Virus record (IMG/VR): IMGVR_UViG_3300046457_000073
Span: 1 to 28,525 of that record
From: a virus
Strand: one strand, 5' to 3'
Length of the DNA stretch: 28,525 bases
The notes beneath the pieces are model-generated. The model saw nothing but the letters and a program-made list of their open reading frames with translations, was not told where the DNA came from and ran no database searches. Positions 8,688 through 24,559 of this stretch are shown one piece after another (position 1 is the stretch's first letter; every line of letters starts with the position of its first letter). A program made the position numbers and the translations under genes.

Positions 8688-8747
8688 GCGCCCCCTAGGT
8701 TCTCTATGGGGCCATCTCCCTCTTCTAAGTTGACTCTATGACGACTC
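8688..8747 (+). repeat. Hairpin repeat element, copy 1 (before second fibre gene)
   Basis: A GC-rich stem-loop (CCCC, loop with TAGGTTCTCTA, GGGG; 8691-8712) is followed by a CTCCCTCTTCT pyrimidine tract and then the fibre start codon. A closely similar element of almost 60 bases occurs at 9889-9946. It may act as a terminator or RNase III-type processing site in the late transcript. Confidence 0.55.
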
Positions 8748-9676
8748 TCGTACCGGCTGCCCTGGTCAGTCCTGCTGGCTCCACATCGGGCCAAGTATTG
8801 ACCTCCGGTGGTCCTTCATTCGCCCCCACATGGGTCACCCCTGTTAAGGCCAGTGTTGGCCTTGGAAACGTGGACAACACCAGCGATGCCAATAAACCTG
8901 TCAGTACCGCACAGGCAACCGCGTTGGGCCTCAAGGCTGACAAGAGCGGGACGCTTGCTCAGTTCGCCTCCACCACTTCATCGCAGCTTCTTGGGGTTCT
9001 TTCTGACGAGACAGGGACAGGCGTAGCTGTCTTTAACAACGCCCCTTCCCTGGTCAGCCCGGTAATCTCGGGGAGCGCGACGGCCCCCACTCAAGCCAAT
9101 ACGGATACCAGCACCCTCCTCGCTACGACAGCGCATGTGAAGAGCCTGAATCTAGGGCAGTTCGCTTCAACCACCTCGGCTCAGCTCGCTGCTGCGATTT
9201 CTGATGAAACCGGAACGGGTGTGTTTGTGCGCAACGTATCCCCAGCCATCAACGCACCTGTTATCACTGGTGTTGCTGACGGCTCTAACGCGGGGGCGGG
9301 GATTGTTGGTGAGTACGTCACGGCGAACGCCAGTGGTGTTTCGCTGACGAGCGGGGTCAGCGTGAATGCGACCAGCATCAGCCTGACTGCTGGTGATTGG
9401 GATGTGTCAGGTGTGGTGGTCTATTCGCCCGCTGGAACCACAATTCTGCAGCTTCAGTATGGTGGCGTGTCTACTACGTCAGCCAGCCTCGGTGCATTCC
9501 AGTACGCCCTCTACAACAATAACAACACCAACGCGGGGGCGGGCGGCGCCATCACTACGCCCACGGTTCGCGTCAGTGTCGCTGCGACCACTACGGTGTA
9601 CCTAGTGGCTCAAGGCGTGTTCACTACGAGCACCTGTACTGTTGCTGGCCTGATTCGCGCGCGCCGCATTCGTTGA
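8738..9676 (+). CDS. Second tail fibre protein
   Basis: A 312-residue fibre. The N-terminal segment has the phrase TSGQVLTSGG followed by SVGLGNVDNTSDANKPVS, a common module of phage side fibres. Two related repeats (QFASTTSxQLxxxxSDETGTG near residues 66-90 and 140-165) suggest a repeated shaft. The C-terminal 130 residues (NAGAGIVGEY, then TAGDWDVSG, ending LIRARRIR) resemble a beta-sandwich tip domain seen in many phage fibres. It probably assembles as a trimer on the tailspike or baseplate and binds the host surface. The start ATG has no strong Shine-Dalgarno sequence and sits just after the hairpin element. Confidence 0.75.
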   Translation: MTTLVPAALVSPAGSTSGQVLTSGGPSFAPTWVTPVKASVGLGNVDNTSDANKPVSTAQATALGLKADKSGTLAQFASTTSSQLLGVLSDETGTGVAVFNNAPSLVSPVISGSATAPTQANTDTSTLLATTAHVKSLNLGQFASTTSAQLAAAISDETGTGVFVRNVSPAINAPVITGVADGSNAGAGIVGEYVTANASGVSLTSGVSVNATSISLTAGDWDVSGVVVYSPAGTTILQLQYGGVSTTSASLGAFQYALYNNNNTNAGAGGAITTPTVRVSVAATTTVYLVAQGVFTTSTCTVAGLIRARRIR

Positions 9677-9963: not shown

Positions 9964-10254
9964 ATGCAACTCCCAGAACACACCAAGACCCTCATCACCC
10001 TGGCCGGTATCGGCGCAGCTATCACCATCGGCAAGCTCCTCTCTGAAGGCGAACCGATGAACCTCAAGCGGGTCACCGGGCGAGTCATCGTTGGCTCCGG
10101 CCTGAGCATGGTGGCATCCGCTGCTGTCGCTCTGTTCCCCCAACTGCCCACTGAAGCCGTCTGCGGTGTCTCCGCTGCGCTGGCTATCTTCGGCACCCAC
10201 TTCCTCGAAGACCTCGTGAAGGTCAAGCTCGGGATTAACTCGGAGGCCAAGTAA
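9964..10254 (+). CDS. Holin
   Basis: A 96-residue membrane protein with three likely transmembrane segments: about residues 10-26 (LITLAGIGAAITIGKLL), 43-60 (VIVGSGLSMVASAAVALF) and 67-83 (AVCGVSAALAIFGTHFL). A charged C-terminus (KVKLGINSEAK) follows. The position directly before the small terminase gene is that of T7 gene 17.5, the holin. It would form inner-membrane holes that release the cytoplasmic endolysin at the end of infection. The Shine-Dalgarno is poor. Its stop overlaps the next start (TAATG), so translation is coupled. Confidence 0.75.
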   Translation: MQLPEHTKTLITLAGIGAAITIGKLLSEGEPMNLKRVTGRVIVGSGLSMVASAAVALFPQLPTEAVCGVSAALAIFGTHFLEDLVKVKLGINSEAK

Positions 10255-10532
10255 TGAGTCAAGCATCGAAGGACACACTGAACGAGCTCCACGGGCTCAT
10301 CGCTGAGACCCTTGCGGGGGCTATTAAGGCCTTCAAGGGAAAGACTGACCCGGAGGACCTCAAAGGCTTGGCCGCGCTTGCTAACGTCGCCAAGGGCTTC
10401 CTGAAAGACAACGGGATTGAAGCTATCCCGGAAGCCAACAGGCCTCTCCAGAACCTCGCTGCAGTGCTCCCGTTCCCCGGTCACGTTGGTGGTGAAGGTG
10501 AAGACGACGAGCCGCAAGTAGCAGCAGGCTAG
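10254..10532 (+). CDS. Terminase small subunit (T7 gp18-like)
   Basis: A 92-residue protein directly after the holin, the position of T7 gene 18. It has a helical N-terminal half (TLNELHGLIAETLAGAIKAFKG), the phrase DPEDLKGLAALANVAKGFLKDNGIEA typical of podophage small terminases, and an acidic tail (GEGEDDEPQ). It would recognise the concatemer and load the large subunit. In T7 the large subunit follows almost at once; here an HNH gene is inserted between them. Confidence 0.8.
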   Translation: MSQASKDTLNELHGLIAETLAGAIKAFKGKTDPEDLKGLAALANVAKGFLKDNGIEAIPEANRPLQNLAAVLPFPGHVGGEGEDDEPQVAAG

Positions 10533-10640: not shown

Positions 10641-11129
10641 TTGAGCCATACCAAGATTTGCGCTCGGTGCAACGCCGAGAAAGAACTTTCCGAGTTCAAC
10701 AAGATGAAGTCGTCAAAAGACGGACACCAGCCCTACTGCAGGCCGTGCGGTGCTGCGTACCTGAACACCCCCGAGCGCCGTGCAGCAGCGCGCGCTTATA
10801 AGAACGCCACCACGCGGACCCTCTCCGGGCGCTGCGTTGCGCTACTGAAGAACGCTGAGGCGCGCGCGAAGGACAAGGGACTGCCCTGCACCATCACGCT
10901 CGCTTGGATCACGGAGCGGGTTGCTGTGGGGCACTGCGCTGTAACCGGGCTCCCCTTCGCCATCGAAGAGGTCGGCCGTGGACTCTCCCCCTCCCTGGAC
11001 CAAATCATTCCGGGCCTTGGGTACACACCTGAGAACACTCAAGTGGTCTGCTGGCTCTACAACCGGGCCAAGGGTGTGGAAGGCCACGATGCAGTCATGC
11101 TGCTCGCGGAGGCCCTGTGCAACAAGTAA
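10641..11129 (+). CDS. HNH-family endonuclease (endonuclease VII-like)
   Basis: A 162-residue protein. The TTG start at 10641 is chosen because the first zinc-finger cysteines come at residues 7 and 10, no upstream ATG is in frame, and AAGAGGA lies 4 bases upstream. Two CxxC pairs (C7/C10 and C32/C35) make a treble-clef-like zinc ribbon. The C-terminal half has the conserved pattern CAVTGLPF, then SLDQIIPGLGYTPENTQVVCWLYN, as in recombination endonuclease VII and related HNH nucleases. It lies between the terminase subunits and overlaps the large subunit start by 13 bases. It could assist packaging by resolving or nicking concatemers, or be a free-standing homing endonuclease. Confidence 0.7.
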   Translation: MSHTKICARCNAEKELSEFNKMKSSKDGHQPYCRPCGAAYLNTPERRAAARAYKNATTRTLSGRCVALLKNAEARAKDKGLPCTITLAWITERVAVGHCAVTGLPFAIEEVGRGLSPSLDQIIPGLGYTPENTQVVCWLYNRAKGVEGHDAVMLLAEALCNK

Positions 11130-12814
11130 AGGACCCCGTAGCAGACGACCTCCGCAACATGGTCTTCTTGATTTGGCAGCATTTGAATCTTCCCGCCCCC
11201 ACCCCCGTTCAATATGACATCGCGGACTACCTGCAGCACGGGCCGAAGCGCCGCATCATTGAGGCGTTCCGGGGGATTGGCAAGAGCTGGCTGACTGCGG
11301 CCTACGTGATATGGCTCCTCTATCGGGACCCTGAGGAGCGCATCTTGGTGGTCTCCGCATCGAAGGCGCGGGCGGATGCGTTCGCCGTGTTCGTCAAGCG
11401 GCTCATCGATGAGATGCCGCTGCTCCACCACCTGAAGCCTAGAGAAGGTCAGCGGGACTCCATCATCGCCTTTGACGTTGGCCCTAGCTCTGCCCACCAA
11501 GCACCCTCGGTTCGCTCTGTGGGTATCACTGGGCAGCTCACGGGTGGCCGTGCTACTCGTATCGTGGCCGATGACGTTGAGGTGCCGAGCAACTCGATGA
11601 CCCAAGCACAGCGGGACAAGCTGAGTGAGTCGGTCAAGGAGTTCGATGCAGTGCTGGTCCCCAACGGGGAAATCACTTACCTCGGGACCCCGCAGACAGA
11701 ACTATCCCTCTACAACCTGCTGACCGAACGCGGCTATGAAATCCGCATCTGGCCCGCACGGTTCCCCAATGACAAGCTCATGGCCTCCTACGGTCAACGA
11801 GTGGCCCCCTTCATCACCAAGCAGCTTGCCAAGAACCCGAAGCTGGCGACTGACTGCAGCGGCCGTGGGGCACCTACAGAACCCTCACGGTTCCATGACC
11901 TCGACCTATTTGAGCGTGAGGCATCTTACGGCCGCTCAGGGTTCGCCATGCAGTTCATGCTGGACACCTCGCTCAGTGATGAGAACAAGTACCCGCTGAA
12001 GCTGGCTGACCTGATGGTGCTGGACCTCAACCCCGAGATGGCCCCTGTGAAGCTCGTATGGGCCTCAGGGCCGGACCAACTGCTCAAGGATGTACAGGCA
12101 GTAGGGTTACAAGGAGACAGGCTCTACAGGCCTCTATTCGTGTCTGGTGAGTTCGCTGAGTATCAGGGCTGTGTCATGGCTATTGACCCCTCGGGCCGTG
12201 GCGGTGATGAGACCAGCTATGCGGTAGTGGCGATGCTCAATGGGCATCTCTACCTGTTGGACGCTGGGGGCTTCAAGGGGGGCTATGAGGATGCTACGCT
12301 CCAGAAGCTCGCTGACACAGCCAAGAAGTACAAGGCCAAGCAGGTCATCATCGAGTCCAACTTCGGTGACGGCATGTACTCCAAGCTGTTCACTCCCTTC
12401 CTGGTCCGCACCTATCCCTGCACCCTTGAGGAGATACGCAGCAGCCAGCAGAAGGAGAAGCGCATCATCGACACCCTAGAGCCCGTACTGAACCAACACA
12501 GGCTCGTGGTGGACACCAAGCTGGTCAAGCGGGACCAAGAGAACTACAACGAATACCCGCTGGAGTCATGGACCAACTACCAGTTGTTCTACCAGCTCAC
12601 CCGTGTCACCAAGGAGCGAGGAGCACTGGCGAAGGATGACCGCCTCGATGCTCTGGCGATGGCTGTGGCCTACTGGGTGGAGCAGATGGACAAGGACACC
12701 CAGAAGGTCCTCGATGACCACCGCTCTGAGATGCTCCGGTTGGAGCTCCAGAAGTTCTCTGACCATGTGCTTGGGATGGCCCCTGCAGAGGACAATTGGG
12801 CCGACAACTGGTGA
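11117..12814 (+). CDS. Terminase large subunit (T7 gp19-like)
   Basis: A 565-residue packaging motor that matches T7 gp19 over long stretches. The Walker A-type motif is FRGIGKSW (51-58), followed by ILVVSASKARAD, a GQRDSIIAFDVGP segment and SVRSVGITGQLTGGRA. The acidic pair D152-D153 (IVADDVEVPSNS) is the Walker B site. The nuclease domain starts at about 345 with AIDPSGRGGDET (D357), then ESNFGDGMYSKLF, and DDRLDALAMA near the end. The GTG start at 11117 has GGAGG 4 bases upstream and overlaps the HNH gene, implying coupling. It translocates DNA into the prohead and cuts the concatemer. It is the last late gene before the genome-end region. Confidence 0.95.
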   Translation: MQQVKDPVADDLRNMVFLIWQHLNLPAPTPVQYDIADYLQHGPKRRIIEAFRGIGKSWLTAAYVIWLLYRDPEERILVVSASKARADAFAVFVKRLIDEMPLLHHLKPREGQRDSIIAFDVGPSSAHQAPSVRSVGITGQLTGGRATRIVADDVEVPSNSMTQAQRDKLSESVKEFDAVLVPNGEITYLGTPQTELSLYNLLTERGYEIRIWPARFPNDKLMASYGQRVAPFITKQLAKNPKLATDCSGRGAPTEPSRFHDLDLFEREASYGRSGFAMQFMLDTSLSDENKYPLKLADLMVLDLNPEMAPVKLVWASGPDQLLKDVQAVGLQGDRLYRPLFVSGEFAEYQGCVMAIDPSGRGGDETSYAVVAMLNGHLYLLDAGGFKGGYEDATLQKLADTAKKYKAKQVIIESNFGDGMYSKLFTPFLVRTYPCTLEEIRSSQQKEKRIIDTLEPVLNQHRLVVDTKLVKRDQENYNEYPLESWTNYQLFYQLTRVTKERGALAKDDRLDALAMAVAYWVEQMDKDTQKVLDDHRSEMLRLELQKFSDHVLGMAPAEDNWADNW

Positions 12815-12860
12815 CCCTCGGAATCCCTTACTGGGCAAGCGAGAGCGAGGAAAAGTGGCC

Positions 12861-12881
12861 TTAACCCTCACTCTCGCAGGA
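12861..12881 (+). promoter_or_regulatory. Phage RNA polymerase promoter, phi-OR position
   Basis: TTAACCCTCACTCTCGCA followed by GGA, with a predicted +1 G at 12876. The first 12 bases equal positions -15 to -4 of the T3 promoter. The 25 bases from GGCC to GGA are identical to those at 18133-18157. It lies just after the large terminase and just before the repeat array, the place of T7 phi-OR, which acts at the genome right end in replication and packaging. Confidence 0.85.
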
Positions 12882-12896
12882 GGGATGAATATCCCC

Positions 12897-12973
12897 CTAT
12901 AGATACTCTTAAGATACTCTATAGGTTATCTATAGATGTCTTATAGATGGCCTAGCATTGGCTATGAGATGCA
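12897..12973 (+). repeat. 11-bp tandem repeat array beside right genome end
   Basis: Units begin at exactly 11-base steps: CTATAG (12897), CTTAAG (12908), CTATAG (12919), CTATAG (12930) and TTATAG (12941), with weaker units at 12952 and 12963. The unit is roughly CTATAGATRCT. Degenerate units in the same phase recur at 13007 (CATAGA) and 13029 (CTATAG). T7 has arrays of a short repeat beside each terminal repeat (SRR and SRL); this occupies the SRR position. Confidence 0.75.
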
Positions 12974-13015
12974 CCAGTACTAGTACACCCACACAGACCC
13001 CACCATCATAGACAC

Positions 13016-13303
13016 CTACTCGGTAAGCCTATAGCATCTCTCTAGGTCACCTCTGGCACTCACATGGATGGCCCTGTTGCCTGAGTCCAGTTCCACCGCT
13101 CTCTGGCATCCCCCATCCATCGTGTCCTTCCACGTCACCACCCGCTTACCCGCCACCATCTGCTCCCCATCCGGGTACCCCCACTTCTTGATAAGGGAAT
13201 CCAGTGGCTGCCCCTTGGCTGTCTCTAGGTGGCTATCGACCATCTTAGGGGTGATACAGGCTGTCAGTACGAGGCACGGCAGGAGGTAGGCTAGGGTTCT
13301 CAT
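13016..13303 (-). CDS. Small lipoprotein, opposite strand to all main genes
   Basis: A 95-residue protein from the ATG at 13303. A longer in-frame extension exists, but the signal peptide fixes this start. It has a textbook lipoprotein signal: positively charged N-terminus (MR), hydrophobic core LAYLLPCLVL and lipobox LTAC, with lipidation at Cys16. The next residues (ITPK) lack the Asp that would retain it in the inner membrane, so outer-membrane sorting is likely. The mature part has the motif GQPLDSLIKKWGYPDG then VVTW, seen in small bacterial and prophage lipoproteins with a BamE-like pattern. Two further cysteines (C70, C91) may form a disulphide. Prophage lipoproteins of this size often act in lysogenic conversion or superinfection exclusion; function here is unproven. 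Confidence 0.7.
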   Translation of the reverse strand: MRTLAYLLPCLVLTACITPKMVDSHLETAKGQPLDSLIKKWGYPDGEQMVAGKRVVTWKDTMDGGCQRAVELDSGNRAIHVSARGDLERCYRLTE

Positions 13304-13603
13304 AGTGGTCTCTGTGGTTTGTCTGAAGTTTACCTTAAGGTGGTCCTGAAATGTTCTACCGGGAAAATCTGAGAGGGTATCTGACACAGCCGGGGCGCGA
13401 CTTCCCCCCGTGCCACCCGCCCACAGCAGGCAGGCCTTGGCCCTCCCAGGCACTCTCTAGCTGCACCACTGGCCTACCCTAGGGCACAGCCTGGGCGCTG
13501 GATGGTCACAGTCATGGGCACACCGCACGCTAAGTCATTGCTTCTAAAGGGATGCCTGAGGATTGGTAATCCTTCAGCAGTAGATACACCGTGGTATCCC
13601 ATA
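13304..13603. other. Noncoding spacer in putative genome-end region
   Basis: No convincing gene is seen on either strand. A hairpin CTGAGGATT-GGT-AATCCTTCAG (13556-13577, one bulge) stands out. The promoter for the minus-strand lipoprotein should lie near 13310-13400 but I cannot identify a clear -35/-10 pair. By analogy with T7 the terminal repeat should fall somewhere between the two 11-bp arrays, which would include this stretch. Confidence 0.4.
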
Positions 13604-13642
13604 GGGGAGATGGTCCAGAGTACCGGGCTGTCTCCCCTTTTT
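13604..13642 (+). terminator. Rho-independent terminator in genome-end region
   Basis: A perfect 7-bp stem GGGGAGA (13604-13610) / TCTCCCC (13631-13637) is followed directly by TTTTT. The 20-base loop holds a further GGT/ACC pairing. It is oriented to stop rightward transcripts coming from the late genes or phi-OR before they enter the early region. Confidence 0.75.
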
Positions 13643-13679
13643 CGCTCATATGTCCGGACATGTCCAACTGTTCGCTCAT
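13641..13679. repeat. Palindrome flanked by direct repeats
   Basis: The perfect 12-bp palindrome ATGTCCGGACAT (13650-13661) follows the first of two TTCGCTCAT direct repeats (13641-13649 and 13671-13679, 30 bp apart). It may be a protein-binding site for end processing or early-promoter control. Confidence 0.45.
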
Positions 13680-13718
13680 GTGTGTGGGATCACCTGTTTG
13701 TTTTGCCCTTTTGGCACC

Positions 13719-13773
13719 CTATAGACCATCCATAGACCACTCTAGGACCTCCACAGAGCCTCTACAGCGCCTT
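13719..13773 (+). repeat. 11-bp phased array beside left genome end
   Basis: Degenerate units lie at 11-base steps: CTATAGACCAT (13719), CCATAGACCAC (13730), TCTAGGACCTC (13741), CACAGAGCCTC (13752) and TACAGCGCCTT (13763). Another CTATAGAC occurs at 13808. The period and the TATAGA core match the array at 12897. It occupies the place of T7 SRL, between the terminal repeat and the early host promoters. Confidence 0.55.
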
Positions 13774-13866
13774 CCTGGCTATCACCTGCTACCCATGTAG
13801 CTCTACCCTATAGACAACCCGCTGTAGCCTCATCTGTTCCTTTTGTGATTTTCTTGCGATTGAGTG

Positions 13867-13895
13867 TTGACATCCTCATGTGGAACGCCTACAGT
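13867..13895 (+). promoter_or_regulatory. Strong sigma70 early promoter
   Basis: A perfect -35 box TTGACA (13867-13872), a 17-base spacer and a -10 box TACAGT (13890-13895). It precedes the first early ORFs with good Shine-Dalgarno sites and so corresponds to the T7 A1-A3 host promoters. A weaker candidate, TTGTTT-N16-TATAGA, ends at 13725 inside the repeat array. Confidence 0.75.
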
Positions 13896-16793: not shown

Positions 16794-17900
16794 TTGGGGA
16801 AGGTTATGAAGCTACGCGGGGATGTGTGGTGGTTCGATGGGTACGTGGACGGGAAGCGTGTGCGCAAGTCCCTGGGCACCACAGACAAGAAGGAAGCCAA
16901 GCGCAAGGAAGCTGAGCTCCTCGCTGGGGTCACTGAGGTTGCCTCCAAGAAGTCTGTAGCCGACTACGGCCCTACTCTCTCGGAAGCCTACAAGAAGGCC
17001 ATGAGGGAATACAAGCCCTGGCGGGACAGCCCAGATGTGCGGACCATCGATAAGAACCGTAGGGCCATCGAAGACTACTTCAAGGCTGACCGTAAGCTGT
17101 CCAGCATCGACCGTGAGGCCATCAACGGCTTCATCGAGTCCATGACCAAGGAAGGAAAGGCTGGGTCAACCATCAATCAGCGTGTGTCCCAGCTCTCAGT
17201 CCTGTTCAACGAAGCCCTGGACAACTGGGGGTATGACAAATTGGTGAAGCCGAGGATTGTCCGCGCCAAGGTAGCAGAGGGCCGCCAGCGACGCTTCACC
17301 AACGAGGAGGTGGCTGAGGCTATCGAGAGGCTCCAGAAGGCCCCCAAGGACATCTACGGGGACGTAGCGGACCTCATCAAGGTACTGGCCGATACCGGCA
17401 TGAGACTGAACGAGTGCCTGAGTCTCACACGGGCCAACTTCAGCCTCCCCGAGAAGCAGATTGTCCTGTGGGTGACCAAGAACAAGCAGCCCCGTGGTGT
17501 CCCCATGACGCCCCGAGTGGTGGACGTATTGACAGCCCGAGCTCACCTCTCGAAGCCCTTTGGGATGCTCTCAGAGACCTCCGCAACGAGGGCCTGGAGG
17601 TGGGTCAGGGAGGAGATGGGGTTCGCTGAGGATGCAGAGTTTGTGATGCACACCCTTCGTCATACGGTAGGCTCACGGCTCGCTGATGCCAACGTATCGG
17701 CACCTTTGATTCAGCAGATGTTAGGCCACAAGTCACTCAAGACCACCCAGAAGTACATCCATGTGAGTGCCTCGGGGCTGCGCCAAGTTGCTGATATTCT
17801 GGCCGCTACAGGGGCTCCAGCGTGTGACCAAAACTGTGACCAAAGTGTGCCCAAAAGTGACCAAAAGGGCACTCCTGGTGTCTCTAGCGAAGCAGCCTAA
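16794..17900 (+). CDS. int: Tyrosine integrase
   Basis: A 368-residue site-specific recombinase. The TTG at 16794 gives the family-like opening MGKV-KLRGDVWW; an ATG at 16806 is the alternative start. It has an N-terminal arm-binding region (GKRVRKSLGTTDKKEAK), a SAM-like core-binding domain (about 60-170) and a catalytic domain. The full active-site set is visible: R204 (TGMRLNE), H286-x-x-R289 (HTLRH), H312 (LGHKS) and nucleophile Y321 (TTQKYIHV). The last 40 residues (CDQNCDQSVPKSDQK) are coded by phased GTGACCAAA repeats. It would integrate the phage at an attP close by. An integrase just upstream of RNA polymerase is known for temperate or cryptically temperate T7-like phages of marine bacteria. 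Confidence 0.95.
   Translation: MGKVMKLRGDVWWFDGYVDGKRVRKSLGTTDKKEAKRKEAELLAGVTEVASKKSVADYGPTLSEAYKKAMREYKPWRDSPDVRTIDKNRRAIEDYFKADRKLSSIDREAINGFIESMTKEGKAGSTINQRVSQLSVLFNEALDNWGYDKLVKPRIVRAKVAEGRQRRFTNEEVAEAIERLQKAPKDIYGDVADLIKVLADTGMRLNECLSLTRANFSLPEKQIVLWVTKNKQPRGVPMTPRVVDVLTARAHLSKPFGMLSETSATRAWRWVREEMGFAEDAEFVMHTLRHTVGSRLADANVSAPLIQQMLGHKSLKTTQKYIHVSASGLRQVADILAATGAPACDQNCDQSVPKSDQKGTPGVSSEAA
17823..17866 (+). repeat. Phased GTGACCAAA repeats at integrase 3' end
   Basis: GTGACCAAA or a one-base variant occurs at 17824, 17836, 17847 (GTGCCCAAA) and 17857, spaced 12, 11 and 10 bases, about one helical turn. Two further copies stand at 18066 (GTGACCAC) and 18078 (GTGACCAAA) beyond the gene. 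They may be arm-type binding sites of the integrase, marking attP. Confidence 0.55.
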
Positions 17901-18136
17901 GCCTCTGAATTCCAACGATAATGTTCCGTCTGGTGACCTGTCCGAGCAGGATGGGTCGTCCTCGGGCAACGGCCATAGGAGCATGTGGGCATCGACTGAA
18001 ATCCGTTGTAAATCAGGCAGTTACACGATAGTTTCCCCATCTGGCACATCCACTTACGCATACGCGTGACCACGAATGTGACCAAAGCTCCTCCAAAAGT
18101 TTCCCTCCTGTTGTCCTTCGCTGACTCCCTAAGGCC
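17901..18136. other. Likely attP region between integrase and phage promoter
   Basis: No convincing gene is present. The stretch is bounded by GTGACCAAA-type repeats on both sides (17823-17866 and 18066-18086), which suggests a core crossover site between them. I looked for a tRNA 3' end (TTCRANNC loop with CCA) or a tmRNA end on both strands and found none, so the core cannot be placed. Confidence 0.45.
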
Positions 18137-18157: not shown

Positions 18158-18427
18158 CGAACGCTGACATCCTGTTGGCGGTTATCCTAGTACTAAGACT
18201 ACTAGGCTAAGTTTCGTATTGTGGGAATACAACAGAATCAATGAACTATAGAATAAAACTATCAATTTGACACATAGGATTGACTCTATAGATTCCCTGA
18301 AGATGGTTACAAAATTGACATAGGGTGTAATCCCTACCAGTACACACTGTAAATATTTCGTGGAAGAGTTCCTCTAATGGATGTATTCCTGATATAGTCT
18401 TACCGTAGTAGGAAACGTAAGTTCAAG
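18158..18427. other. AT-rich leader between phage promoter and terminator
   Basis: No gene is seen. It holds a perfect inverted repeat CCTAGTA (18186-18192) / TACTAGG (18200-18206) and a hairpin GTATT-GTGGG-AATAC (18216-18230). Two sigma70 -35-like TTGACA boxes (18267-18272 and 18315-18320) lack good -10 partners at normal spacing. It could encode a regulatory RNA of about 300 nt ending at the terminator, or hold host promoters for the polymerase gene. Confidence 0.4.
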
Positions 18428-18492: not shown

Positions 18493-20925
18493 ATGACCAC
18501 GAACACATCCAGCATCGACCTTCAAGCCCTCCAAATCGAACTCGAAGAGGAATCGATTGGTCTTGGGATGAAGCGCTACAACGAAGCCCTGAAGCAGGGT
18601 GAAGACATGATGCCCCCTGGTCTTCAGATGATTAAGGCTGCTGTTGAGCCGACCGCTGTTGTCATTGACAAGTTCATCGAGGAAGGACTGTCAGGCAAGG
18701 CCAACCGCTCCGTTGGTGTGGTCCGCTTCCTTGACCAGTTCCCTGACCGCAAGCTGGTGGCATTCGTCACAGCAAAGGTGGTCATGAACCACATCTCCAG
18801 CATGTCAATGGTCGGTGCTGTTGCTGGCGACATCGCCAATCGTCTGGAGGATTGTCTGAACTTTGACGAGCTCAAGAAGGCTGAACCGGCCCTCTATAAG
18901 CAACTGCTGAAGAAGATTGAGAGCTCCCGCGATGAGCGCCACCGCCACATCGTCCTCCGTGTGCAGCAGAAGTACGCCAAGGTGGTCCCCATCAAGTGGG
19001 GCAAGTCGGAGAAGGTGCGCCTCGGTATGGCCCTCATCTCGATGTTCCAGGAAGCTACGGGACTCGTGGAGGTGCAGACCTTCGTCCGTGGCGCCAATGA
19101 CACCCCGCACATCGTTGTGCCCACTGAAGAAACCGCCAAGTGGCTCGCCAACGGCCACGCTCGGTGTGCCCTTATGTCCCCTATGGCTATGCCTATGGTG
19201 GTCCAGCCGCGCCCTTGGACCAGCCCGTTCGGTGGTGGTTACCTGACCAAGCCGATGCGCTTCCCGCTCATCAAGACTGGCAACCGGAACTACCTGGAGG
19301 ACCTGAAGCAGGTCTCCATGCCGATGGTCTACAAGGCCGTCAATGCCCTTCAGGAAACCCCGTGGGCCATCAACAAAGCCATCCTGCATGTGATGAAGGA
19401 GGTCTGGGACAACGGCGGCCGCCTCGGTAAGCTGCCCCACCGGGACCCGATGCCCCTCCCTACGAAGACCTTTGACCTCGATACACCGGACCCGGAGGAG
19501 CTCAAGGCGTGGAAGAAGCAGGCAGCACAGGTGTACGAGGGCAACATCCGCGCTGCATCCAAGCGGGCCTCGATGTCCAGCAAGCTGTGGATGGCCGAGA
19601 AGTTCGAGAACATCGAAGCCTTCTACTACGTTCACAATCTGGACTGGCGTGGCCGGGCGTACCCGGTGGCTACCTTCCTGAATCCGCAGGGGGCCGACAG
19701 TGACAAGGCGCTCCTGCAGTTCTCGGAAGGGAAAGCACTGGGGGACAATGGTGCTCGCTGGCTGGCTATCCACGGTGCCAACACCTTCGGCATCGACAAG
19801 GTGGACTTCGATGAACGCATTCAGTGGGTCATCGACCATCAGGACCAAATCCTGGAGGCCGCTATCAACCCGCTGGACGGTTCCCGCTGGTGGGCCGATG
19901 CTGACAGCCCGTACATGTTCCTGGCCTTCTGCTACGAGTGGCTCGCCCTCACGATGCATACGGACCTCGGCAAGGATCAAGAGGACTTCGTAAGCCACCT
20001 CCCGTGCTCCTGGGATGGCGCCTGTAATGGCCTGCAGAACTTCTCGGCCCTCCTTCGGGATGAAGTGGGTGGCGCTGCTGTTGGCTTGGTCCCCAGCGAT
20101 AAGCCGAGTGACATCTACAGCGAAGTGGCGAAGGCTGCCAACGTGCTGATGCTGGCTGATGCTGACGAAGGCATCGAACTGGGCCAGAAGTGGGCCGGTA
20201 AGATGACCCGCAAGCTCTCCAAGCCCAACACCATGACGACTCCCTACGGTGCCACCAAGCGGGGCATGTGCCAGCAAATTGAAGGCGTCTTCCAGAAGAT
20301 GAAGGCCGATGGTGCGGAAGTCACTGCGGACCTGAAGGACTGCCAGTACCTCGCCAACACGAACTATCAGGCAATCGGCAAGGTGGTGGTGGCCGCTCAC
20401 TTGGCGATGGACTGGCTGAAGGAAGCCGCTCGGGTGGCAGCATCCAACGGCCTGCCTATTCACTGGAATACCCCGAGTGGCCTGCTGGTGCTTCAGAACT
20501 ACCGCGAACAGGTGGGCAAGCGCCTGGACATGGTGGTGGCTGGTGTTCGTGTACAGCTCATGCTCAAGAGCGACGGTGACAAGCTCGATGGCCGCAAATG
20601 TTCTGCAGGAATTTCCCCGAATTACATCCACTCGCTCGATGGGGCTCATATGCAGCGGACCGTGGCCTACTGTATTGATGCAGGCATCTCGGACTTCGCC
20701 ATGATCCACGATAGCTATGGTAGCCATGCGGGTTCCGCTGAGGCACTGCGGGATTGTCTGCGGGAAGCCTTCGTGGACCAGTACAGCGGTGACGTGCTGG
20801 CTGACTTCAAGGCTCAGTTGGTTGCCCAGTTGCCCGAAGCGCTGGCTAATGAGATTCCCGAACTGCCCCCGATGGGCAACCTGGATTTGAAGTTGGTCCT
20901 CCAATCGGAGTATTTCTTTGCCTAA
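18493..20925 (+). CDS. T7-type single-subunit RNA polymerase
   Basis: An 810-residue DNA-directed RNA polymerase, somewhat shorter than T7 (883), that transcribes the middle and late genes from the phage promoters. Motif A is CSWDGACNGLQNFSALLRDEVGG with catalytic D508. Motif B has K577 and Y585 (KPNTMTTPYG), equivalent to T7 K631 and Y639. Motif C is IHDSYGSHAG with D740. The segment before GISPNYIHSLDGAH corresponds to the promoter specificity loop. The C-terminus ends SEYFFA, like the T7 FAFA foot. AGGGAACACATC precedes the ATG. Terminators on both sides isolate the gene, which suggests that its entry into expression is the key control point. Confidence 0.97.
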   Translation: MTTNTSSIDLQALQIELEEESIGLGMKRYNEALKQGEDMMPPGLQMIKAAVEPTAVVIDKFIEEGLSGKANRSVGVVRFLDQFPDRKLVAFVTAKVVMNHISSMSMVGAVAGDIANRLEDCLNFDELKKAEPALYKQLLKKIESSRDERHRHIVLRVQQKYAKVVPIKWGKSEKVRLGMALISMFQEATGLVEVQTFVRGANDTPHIVVPTEETAKWLANGHARCALMSPMAMPMVVQPRPWTSPFGGGYLTKPMRFPLIKTGNRNYLEDLKQVSMPMVYKAVNALQETPWAINKAILHVMKEVWDNGGRLGKLPHRDPMPLPTKTFDLDTPDPEELKAWKKQAAQVYEGNIRAASKRASMSSKLWMAEKFENIEAFYYVHNLDWRGRAYPVATFLNPQGADSDKALLQFSEGKALGDNGARWLAIHGANTFGIDKVDFDERIQWVIDHQDQILEAAINPLDGSRWWADADSPYMFLAFCYEWLALTMHTDLGKDQEDFVSHLPCSWDGACNGLQNFSALLRDEVGGAAVGLVPSDKPSDIYSEVAKAANVLMLADADEGIELGQKWAGKMTRKLSKPNTMTTPYGATKRGMCQQIEGVFQKMKADGAEVTADLKDCQYLANTNYQAIGKVVVAAHLAMDWLKEAARVAASNGLPIHWNTPSGLLVLQNYREQVGKRLDMVVAGVRVQLMLKSDGDKLDGRKCSAGISPNYIHSLDGAHMQRTVAYCIDAGISDFAMIHDSYGSHAGSAEALRDCLREAFVDQYSGDVLADFKAQLVAQLPEALANEIPELPPMGNLDLKLVLQSEYFFA

Positions 20926-20963
20926 TGCGTTCCACTTGCGTATGTGTTTCTGATGCGCAAGGG

Positions 20964-23922: not shown

Positions 23923-24101
23923 AAGTCAAACACACCCAGAACGGCAACATCAAGCTGACGGTCACCGAAGATCAGGCTAAGGTCATCAACTGGTGCCTCA
24001 CTTACGCTGCAGGAAAGAGCGAAGATGGCTACTTTGCCCGCCACGAGACCGCAGCAGCGCGCGCTATGGCTGACGAGTTGGATTCGGCGCGCCTTTTCTG
24101 A
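23919..24101 (+). CDS. Hypothetical protein, 60 aa
   Basis: Overlaps endonuclease I by ATGA and abuts the amidase start. The sequence MKVKHTQNGNIKLTVTEDQAKVINWCLTYAAGK then ETAAARAMADELDSARLF suggests a small strand-helix-helix protein. It lies between T7 gene 3 and 3.5 homologues. Function unknown. Confidence 0.6.
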   Translation: MKVKHTQNGNIKLTVTEDQAKVINWCLTYAAGKSEDGYFARHETAAARAMADELDSARLF

Positions 24102-24559
24102 TGTCCAAGCTGACCACTGAAGCCGTGGTCTACATTGTTATCCACGCTTCAAATACTAAACCACGTCAGAAAGTCAACAAGGCCTTCATCGAACGCATCC
24201 ACCGCCTCAAGGGGCGCCTGTGGGTGGGCTATCACTTCATCCTGGACCGCAAAGGGAACATCGAAACGGGCCGCTCACTGGACCAAATCGGTGCCCACGC
24301 TCCGGGATTCGATAGTCAATCCATCGGCATCTGCTTGGCTGGCGGTATGGACCAGGAAGGGAACCCCGCAGACAACTTCACGAAGGACCAGCGGGAGAAC
24401 CTTCTGACTCTCCTCACGTACCTCCATACGCAGTTCCCGCAGGCCATCGTAGTGGGGCATCGGGACCTCCCTAACGCCACCACCAGTTGCCCGCAGTTCG
24501 ATGTCAAGCAGTTCCTTCAGGAGTCTCAGTATGTTCCTCCGCTTCAAAGCATGGCTTGA
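24101..24559 (+). CDS. N-acetylmuramoyl-L-alanine amidase (T7 lysozyme, gp3.5-like)
   Basis: A 152-residue zinc amidase of the Amidase_2/PGRP fold. The zinc ligands are H15, H120 and C130, nearly the same numbers as in T7 (17, 122, 130), and the catalytic Tyr is Y44 (GYHF). The T7 Lys128 position is Thr here, as in many PGRP-type amidases. In T7 the protein both cuts peptidoglycan and binds RNA polymerase to slow transcription and aid the switch to replication and packaging. A similar brake on the polymerase at 18493 is likely but not shown. It overlaps the preceding stop by one base. Confidence 0.93.
   Translation: MSKLTTEAVVYIVIHASNTKPRQKVNKAFIERIHRLKGRLWVGYHFILDRKGNIETGRSLDQIGAHAPGFDSQSIGICLAGGMDQEGNPADNFTKDQRENLLTLLTYLHTQFPQAIVVGHRDLPNATTSCPQFDVKQFLQESQYVPPLQSMA

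Follow-up and report, generated by a model that had tools for sequence, protein, structure and literature searches.

In phage T7 the elements of the concatemer junction follow one another in the order phi-OR, SRR, direct terminal repeat (160 bp), SRL and A promoters, with phi-OL and gene 19.5 lying in the same part of the genome. SRL and SRR were reportedly described in T7 by Dunn and Studier in 1983. The T7 SRL holds 12 copies of its motif at spacings of 13, 13, 12, 13, 13, 28, 13, 13, 13, 13 and 13 bp, and T7 also shows an 11-bp phase just past phi-OR.

The sequence ATCTGTT, a class II termination/pause signal of the T7 polymerase, occurs at the concatemer junction (PMC11617373). According to PMC3276506, citing Zhang and Studier (2004), maturation in T7 begins with pausing of polymerase and lysozyme on the right-hand side of the junction. 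In the Yersinia phages fPS, whose ends were mapped by ligation, Salem and Skurnik described repeats on both sides, each set lying between a terminal repeat and the phage promoter next to it; the left side holds 11 to 34 copies (PMC5923468). A literature search on the function of SRL and SRR found nothing.

The window, i.e. the whole stretch of DNA analysed here, is an entire IMG/VR virus record, a linear metagenomic contig of 28,525 bp. What lies downstream of its terminase genes is a T7-type junction of the ordinary kind, found here in a new clade. The author of an earlier note on this DNA had not seen the repeat unit found there described; repeats flanking mapped T7-type ends are, however, already in print (PMC5923468). 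Compared by published description, the fPS phages resemble the window in that short repeats lie, at either end, between the terminal repeat and a neighbouring phage promoter. The arrays of the window are the local version of arrays known beside the ends of T7 and its relatives, which makes the junction another instance of an arrangement already known.

The window among integrase-bearing T7-type phages

The large terminase subunit gene (gp19-like; 11117..12814, plus strand; Pfam PF22530, E = 4e-41) encodes a protein that is 59-61% identical to the TerL proteins of Limnohabitans phage YIMV22061 and of LUZ100. The small subunit gene (gp18-like; 10254..10532, plus strand; phrog_891, E = 3e-14) lies upstream. 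Between both terminase genes there is an endonuclease VII/HNH-like gene (10641-11129), and LUZ100 carries a putative endonuclease in the equivalent slot.

On the 3' side of the junction we find early genes, a MarR-like regulator, a tyrosine integrase and a T7-type RNA polymerase (18493..20925, plus strand; PF00940, E = 5e-110), which is the layout of LUZ100 (PMC10134795). LUZ100, Pasto and YIMV22061 resemble the window in that they bear an integrase, have lysogeny genes between the early region and the polymerase gene, and possess a T7-type terminase; YIMV22061 moreover has, as does the window, a minus-strand gene past the terminase. A T7-lysozyme-like amidase gene (gp3.5; 24101..24559, plus strand; T7 lysozyme 1LBA, E = 1e-28) is also present, and its product would be expected to act with the phage polymerase in pausing.

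Two further repeats touch the integrase gene. Imperfect direct repeats of the type GTGACCAAA are found at its end (17822-17866) and past it (18063-18100); these are possibly integrase arm sites near attP. The perfect 16-bp inverted repeat GGCACTCACATGGATG links 17756-17771, in the 3' part of the integrase gene, with 13055-13070, in the small cargo gene described below.

Anatomy and conservation of the junction

The terminase gene is followed by a phage RNA polymerase promoter (12857..12881, plus strand), as the earlier note had proposed. It was recognised as a repeated 25-mer, with an exact copy at 18133 and variants with a few mismatches at 20961 and 21819. Its T3-like core TTAACCCTCACT is also present in the phi-OR region of T3, and it occupies the position that phi-OR has in T7 and T3.

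The first, SRR-like array (12897..12951) consists of five 11-bp units. The hexamers CTATAG (12897, 12919, 12930), CTTAAG (12908) and TTATAG (12941) were all found where they had been claimed, at steps of 11 bp. The spacing of this array, which had been called exact, is indeed 11 bp at every step; in sequence the units are imperfect copies, with 37 of 55 positions matching at lag 11. This is the best 55-bp window at lag 11 and the top score of all periods from 3 to 39 across the record. The second, SRL-like array (13719..13773) likewise has an 11-bp pitch, with 35 of 55 positions matching in the best window over the array. The autocorrelation check that the note had suggested was made against 200 dinucleotide shuffles of the whole window (periods 6-30, all positions): the maximum score was 33 and none of the 200 reached 35, so both arrays exceed the shuffles.

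A predicted host sigma-70-type promoter (13867..13895, plus strand) follows the second array and lies 3' of the left repeat, again in accordance with the note. It is recognised by its sequence, i.e. TTGACA (13867-13872), a 17-bp spacer and TACAGT (13890-13895), the latter matching 4 of 6 positions of the -10 consensus. TTGACA and the spacing are kept in the relatives.

For comparison, 80 loci carrying the terminase (relatives are designated below by L numbers) were drawn from viral contigs and ten of them were aligned over the junction. The first array, the block 13350-13718, the second array and the host promoter are common to the aligned relatives. The first array is conserved at 11 bp in L005, L007, L008, L016 and L046 and at 12 bp in L010, L019 and L023, while the second has an 11-bp pitch in L005, L007, L008, L010, L016, L019, L020 and L046. 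The arrays therefore recur in related phages, as the note had asked to see: place and pitch (11 or 12 bp in close relatives) are held and the sequence of the unit drifts. This bears on the idea that the arrays are functionless by-products of replication slippage at genome ends, which is suggested by the variation of the T7-type Yersinia phages (repeat numbers next to the left terminal repeat range from 11 to 34, and variation is greatest near the ends; PMC5923468). We consider slippage an improbable explanation: the pitch of 11-12 bp and the position persist in relatives despite changed unit sequences, and phages of different subfamilies carry arrays at 11-13 bp.

The stretch between the arrays had been called a spacer. 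Its first part contains an optional cargo gene (13016..13300, minus strand) that encodes a small protein with a lipoprotein-type signal (phrog_3716, E = 2e-10; function of phrog_3716 unassigned). It sits between the first array and the terminal repeat and is antisense to all its neighbours. The stretch from the first array to 13350 is replaceable, i.e. L010 and L013 have a different open stretch there and the close relatives L005, L007 and L046 almost nothing. Gene 19.5 of T7 sits in the matching slot. The same slot is occupied in Pseudomonas phage 3MF5 (L148, 556-2064) by an annotated integrase gene, on the minus strand between a phi-OR-like promoter and the right terminal repeat. We also note in L023 (~8740-8950) a long run of 15-bp repeats of the type ACCTGTATGGGGCGG, which probably encode a pentapeptide-repeat protein.

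With respect to T7, the window has the same order of elements, the left-end element AAAATCTGAGNGNNTATCTNACA, a right pause-type site, motif arrays on both sides of the repeat and an 11-bp phase right after phi-OR. The T7-style junction of the earlier note is thus well supported by order, by the left-end element and pause-like site, and by conservation. The differences are that the T7 SRL has a 13-bp pitch and the unit CCTAAAG, whereas the window has a pitch of 11 bp and a CTATAG-type unit; that the pause site is ATCTGTT in T7 and ACCTGTT in the window; that the repeat is 160 bp in T7 and about 312 bp, by prediction, in the window; and that phi-OL and gene 19.5 are absent from the window. SRL and SRR proper, i.e. 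CCTAAAG at 13 bp, were not found in it, and its arrays are equivalent to them by place, not by sequence.

Since the phage encodes a MarR-like regulator and an integrase, the arrays might alternatively be operators for the MarR-like repressor or for another regulator of lysogeny genes, not packaging elements, and CTATAG does occur also close to the polymerase gene, at 18246 and 18286. These copies, however, form no array, and the strictly lytic phages T7 and SP6 carry equivalent arrays in equivalent places, which makes an operator function very unlikely.

Predicted genome ends

The left-end element AAAATCTGAGAGGGTA-TCTGACA is found at 13364..13386 (plus strand), with the predicted cut between the two parts. 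The pattern AAAATCTGAGNGNNTATCTNACA is rare: it was found in only 17 stretches of IMG/VR viral contigs, namely 15 T7-type isolates and 2 relatives of the window. Wherever the ends of such a T7-type record are intact, its first base follows immediately on the first 16 nt of the element. In T7, AAAAATCTGAGTGACTA is followed, from the first genome base on, by TCTCACAG; T3 has AAAATCTGAATGGGTA and then TCTCATAG, the latter mapped as its left end by adaptor sequencing (PMC3896407); gh-1 has AAAATCTGAATGGTCA and then CCTCTCAA; and the Pasto record, whose ends were mapped with PhageTerm, ends with AAAATCCGAGACACTG and starts with AACTCGAC. In general terms, the start lies 16 nt after the beginning of AAAATCTGAG, or of a near variant, in T7, T3, gh-1, Pasto and several other T7 types. 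There are exceptions as recorded: 3MF5 is off by about 2 nt, BB8 by 6, ProddE by 8 and LUZ100, which differs from the window in this respect, by 12 nt. In the SP6 genome the left-end element was not found. Since the window shares the element with T7-type genomes that obey the 16-nt rule, with the exact pattern directly 5' of the putative repeat, its left end is predicted at 13380.

The right ends of T7, T3 and Pasto read CCCT and continue with ATCTGTT, so Pasto has both end rules in common with the window. SP6, with its right end likewise at a class II pause site, ends with GTGTGTGGGCGTGGGCTA and continues with TCTGTTCGTTTGC. At 13692 the window reads GTGTGTGGGATC-ACCTGTTTGTTTTGC, containing ACCTGTT. 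This class II-like pause site (ACCTGTTTGTTTT, 13692..13704, plus strand) is one base from ATCTGTT, and the SP6 context, i.e. GTGTGTGGG..TA followed by TCTGTTCGTTTGC, is matched by it. ACCT[GA]TT is kept here in all clade members examined.

An exact ATCTGTT is also found, at 13832..13838 (plus strand). It adjoins a T-rich stretch and is conserved in L005, L007, L008, L010, L020 and L022; if the right end of the same junction were at about 13831, the repeat would be about 452 bp long and enclose the second array. This counts against our main reading. We regard such an end as rather unlikely. The exact site is lost in L013, L015, L016 and L019, it precedes the host promoter by only 35 bp, and the array comes after the pause site, not before it, in T7, T3, SP6 and 3MF5. 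We chose 13691 over 13831 because, of the two sites, the one at 13692 is present in every clade member examined and the other is not, and because only the former leaves array and host promoter ordered as in end-mapped phages. By the boundary rules of end-mapped relatives, the right end is thus predicted at 13691 and the direct terminal repeat at 13380..13691 (about 312 bp); the alternative right end is 13831. The interval that the earlier note had proposed for the repeat (12974-13718) encloses the predicted one. When contig ends of the clade were used as a proxy for physical ends, none was located at a predicted boundary.

Inside the predicted repeat there is a terminator-like hairpin (13604..13642, plus strand; arms 13604-13616 and 13625-13637, followed by TTTTT). 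Covariation is apparent, as 8 of its 16 predicted pairs retain pairing via two-sided changes (8 sequences), and LUZ100 has annotated terminators in the equivalent region.

Pitch of the arrays and their proposed role

The earlier note contrasted a 7-bp repeat in T7 with the 11-bp repeat of the window, which sets the length of a motif against a period: the 7-bp motif of T7 has a 13-bp pitch. A pitch of 12 bp was best for SP6, 3MF5, LUZ100, BB8 and YIMV22061. LUZ100 and YIMV22061, both at 12 bp, and Pasto, with a weak array, resemble the window in having arrays near the repeat and differ from it in their units, which are GC-rich. Compared with 3,266 background windows, which themselves favour pitches of 9, 12 and 15 because of coding periodicity, most of these phages and of the relatives scored in the top 2%, and T3, gh-1, phi15, Pasto and L022 were unremarkable by autocorrelation.

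It had also been argued that 11 bp is about one helical turn and hence points to cooperative protein binding. Helical-turn phasing was rejected as the cause of the pitch because the latter varies from 11 to 13 bp between phages, and even between the arrays of single relatives (12 in the first and 11 in the second array of L010 and L019). Bending at TA steps was rejected on reading the sequences, the GC-rich arrays of YIMV22061, Pasto and LUZ100 being mostly without TA.

Alternatively, the arrays could function at the RNA level once transcribed, or take part in transcription or replication, e.g. by slowing the phi-OR polymerase or by providing primase sites near the end. The first array lies immediately 3' of the promoter start, and T7 packaging requires transcription to get as far as the junction (PMC3276506). 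Primase-type words (GACCA, GACCC, GACAC) occur, by reading of the alignment, in some second arrays; they are absent from the first array and from the second arrays of L020 and L022, and primase sites were rejected as a general function. We hold an RNA or transcription role to be fairly unlikely.

Our preferred reading, which we consider probable, is that a T7-like phage with an integrase has its concatemer junction here, with ends at about 13380 and 13691, flanking arrays and cutting guided by pausing. Late in infection the phage polymerase would initiate at the phi-OR-like promoter at 12857 and transcribe the first array and the terminal repeat. The terminator hairpin and the class II-like site at 13692 would then slow it down or halt it, probably in concert with the T7-lysozyme homologue, and the stalled complex would flag the junction for the terminase. 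The terminase would cut at about 13691, giving the right end, and at about 13380, giving the left, so that both ends carry the direct repeat of about 312 bp. The window encodes homologues of T7 lysozyme, TerS, TerL and the polymerase, which counts in favour of this reading. Against the main reading count the departures of LUZ100, BB8 and ProddE from the left rule, the missing left element of SP6, and the arrays of T3 and gh-1, which are below significance by autocorrelation.

Placed on either side of the repeat, like SRR and SRL in T7, the arrays would most likely offer a packaging protein a series of docking sites specific to the phage. Packaging specificity in T3 and T7 involves gp19 and DNA within 5% of the termini, according to the statement in PMC3276506 that cites Yamagishi (1985). 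Because their unit is phage-specific, their place is fixed and this specificity lies near the termini, the arrays are good candidates for packaging recognition; taken by itself, such a function seems plausible, at slightly less than even chances. A tentative and considerably less likely extension is that arrays of 11-13 bp with a phage-specific unit form a recognition code throughout the Autographiviridae, in which the geometry of an oligomeric packaging protein would hold the pitch while the drifting unit would set packaging specificity.

The two boundary elements, shared with the end-mapped phages T7, T3, gh-1 and Pasto, and with SP6 for the right end only, allow exact end positions to be predicted for an uncultured phage from sequence alone. 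Across the family, the pitch of arrays next to T7-type ends stays within 11-13 bp while the unit changes, and this conservation of pitch makes the role of SRL and SRR, an old question, accessible to a simple binding or deletion test.
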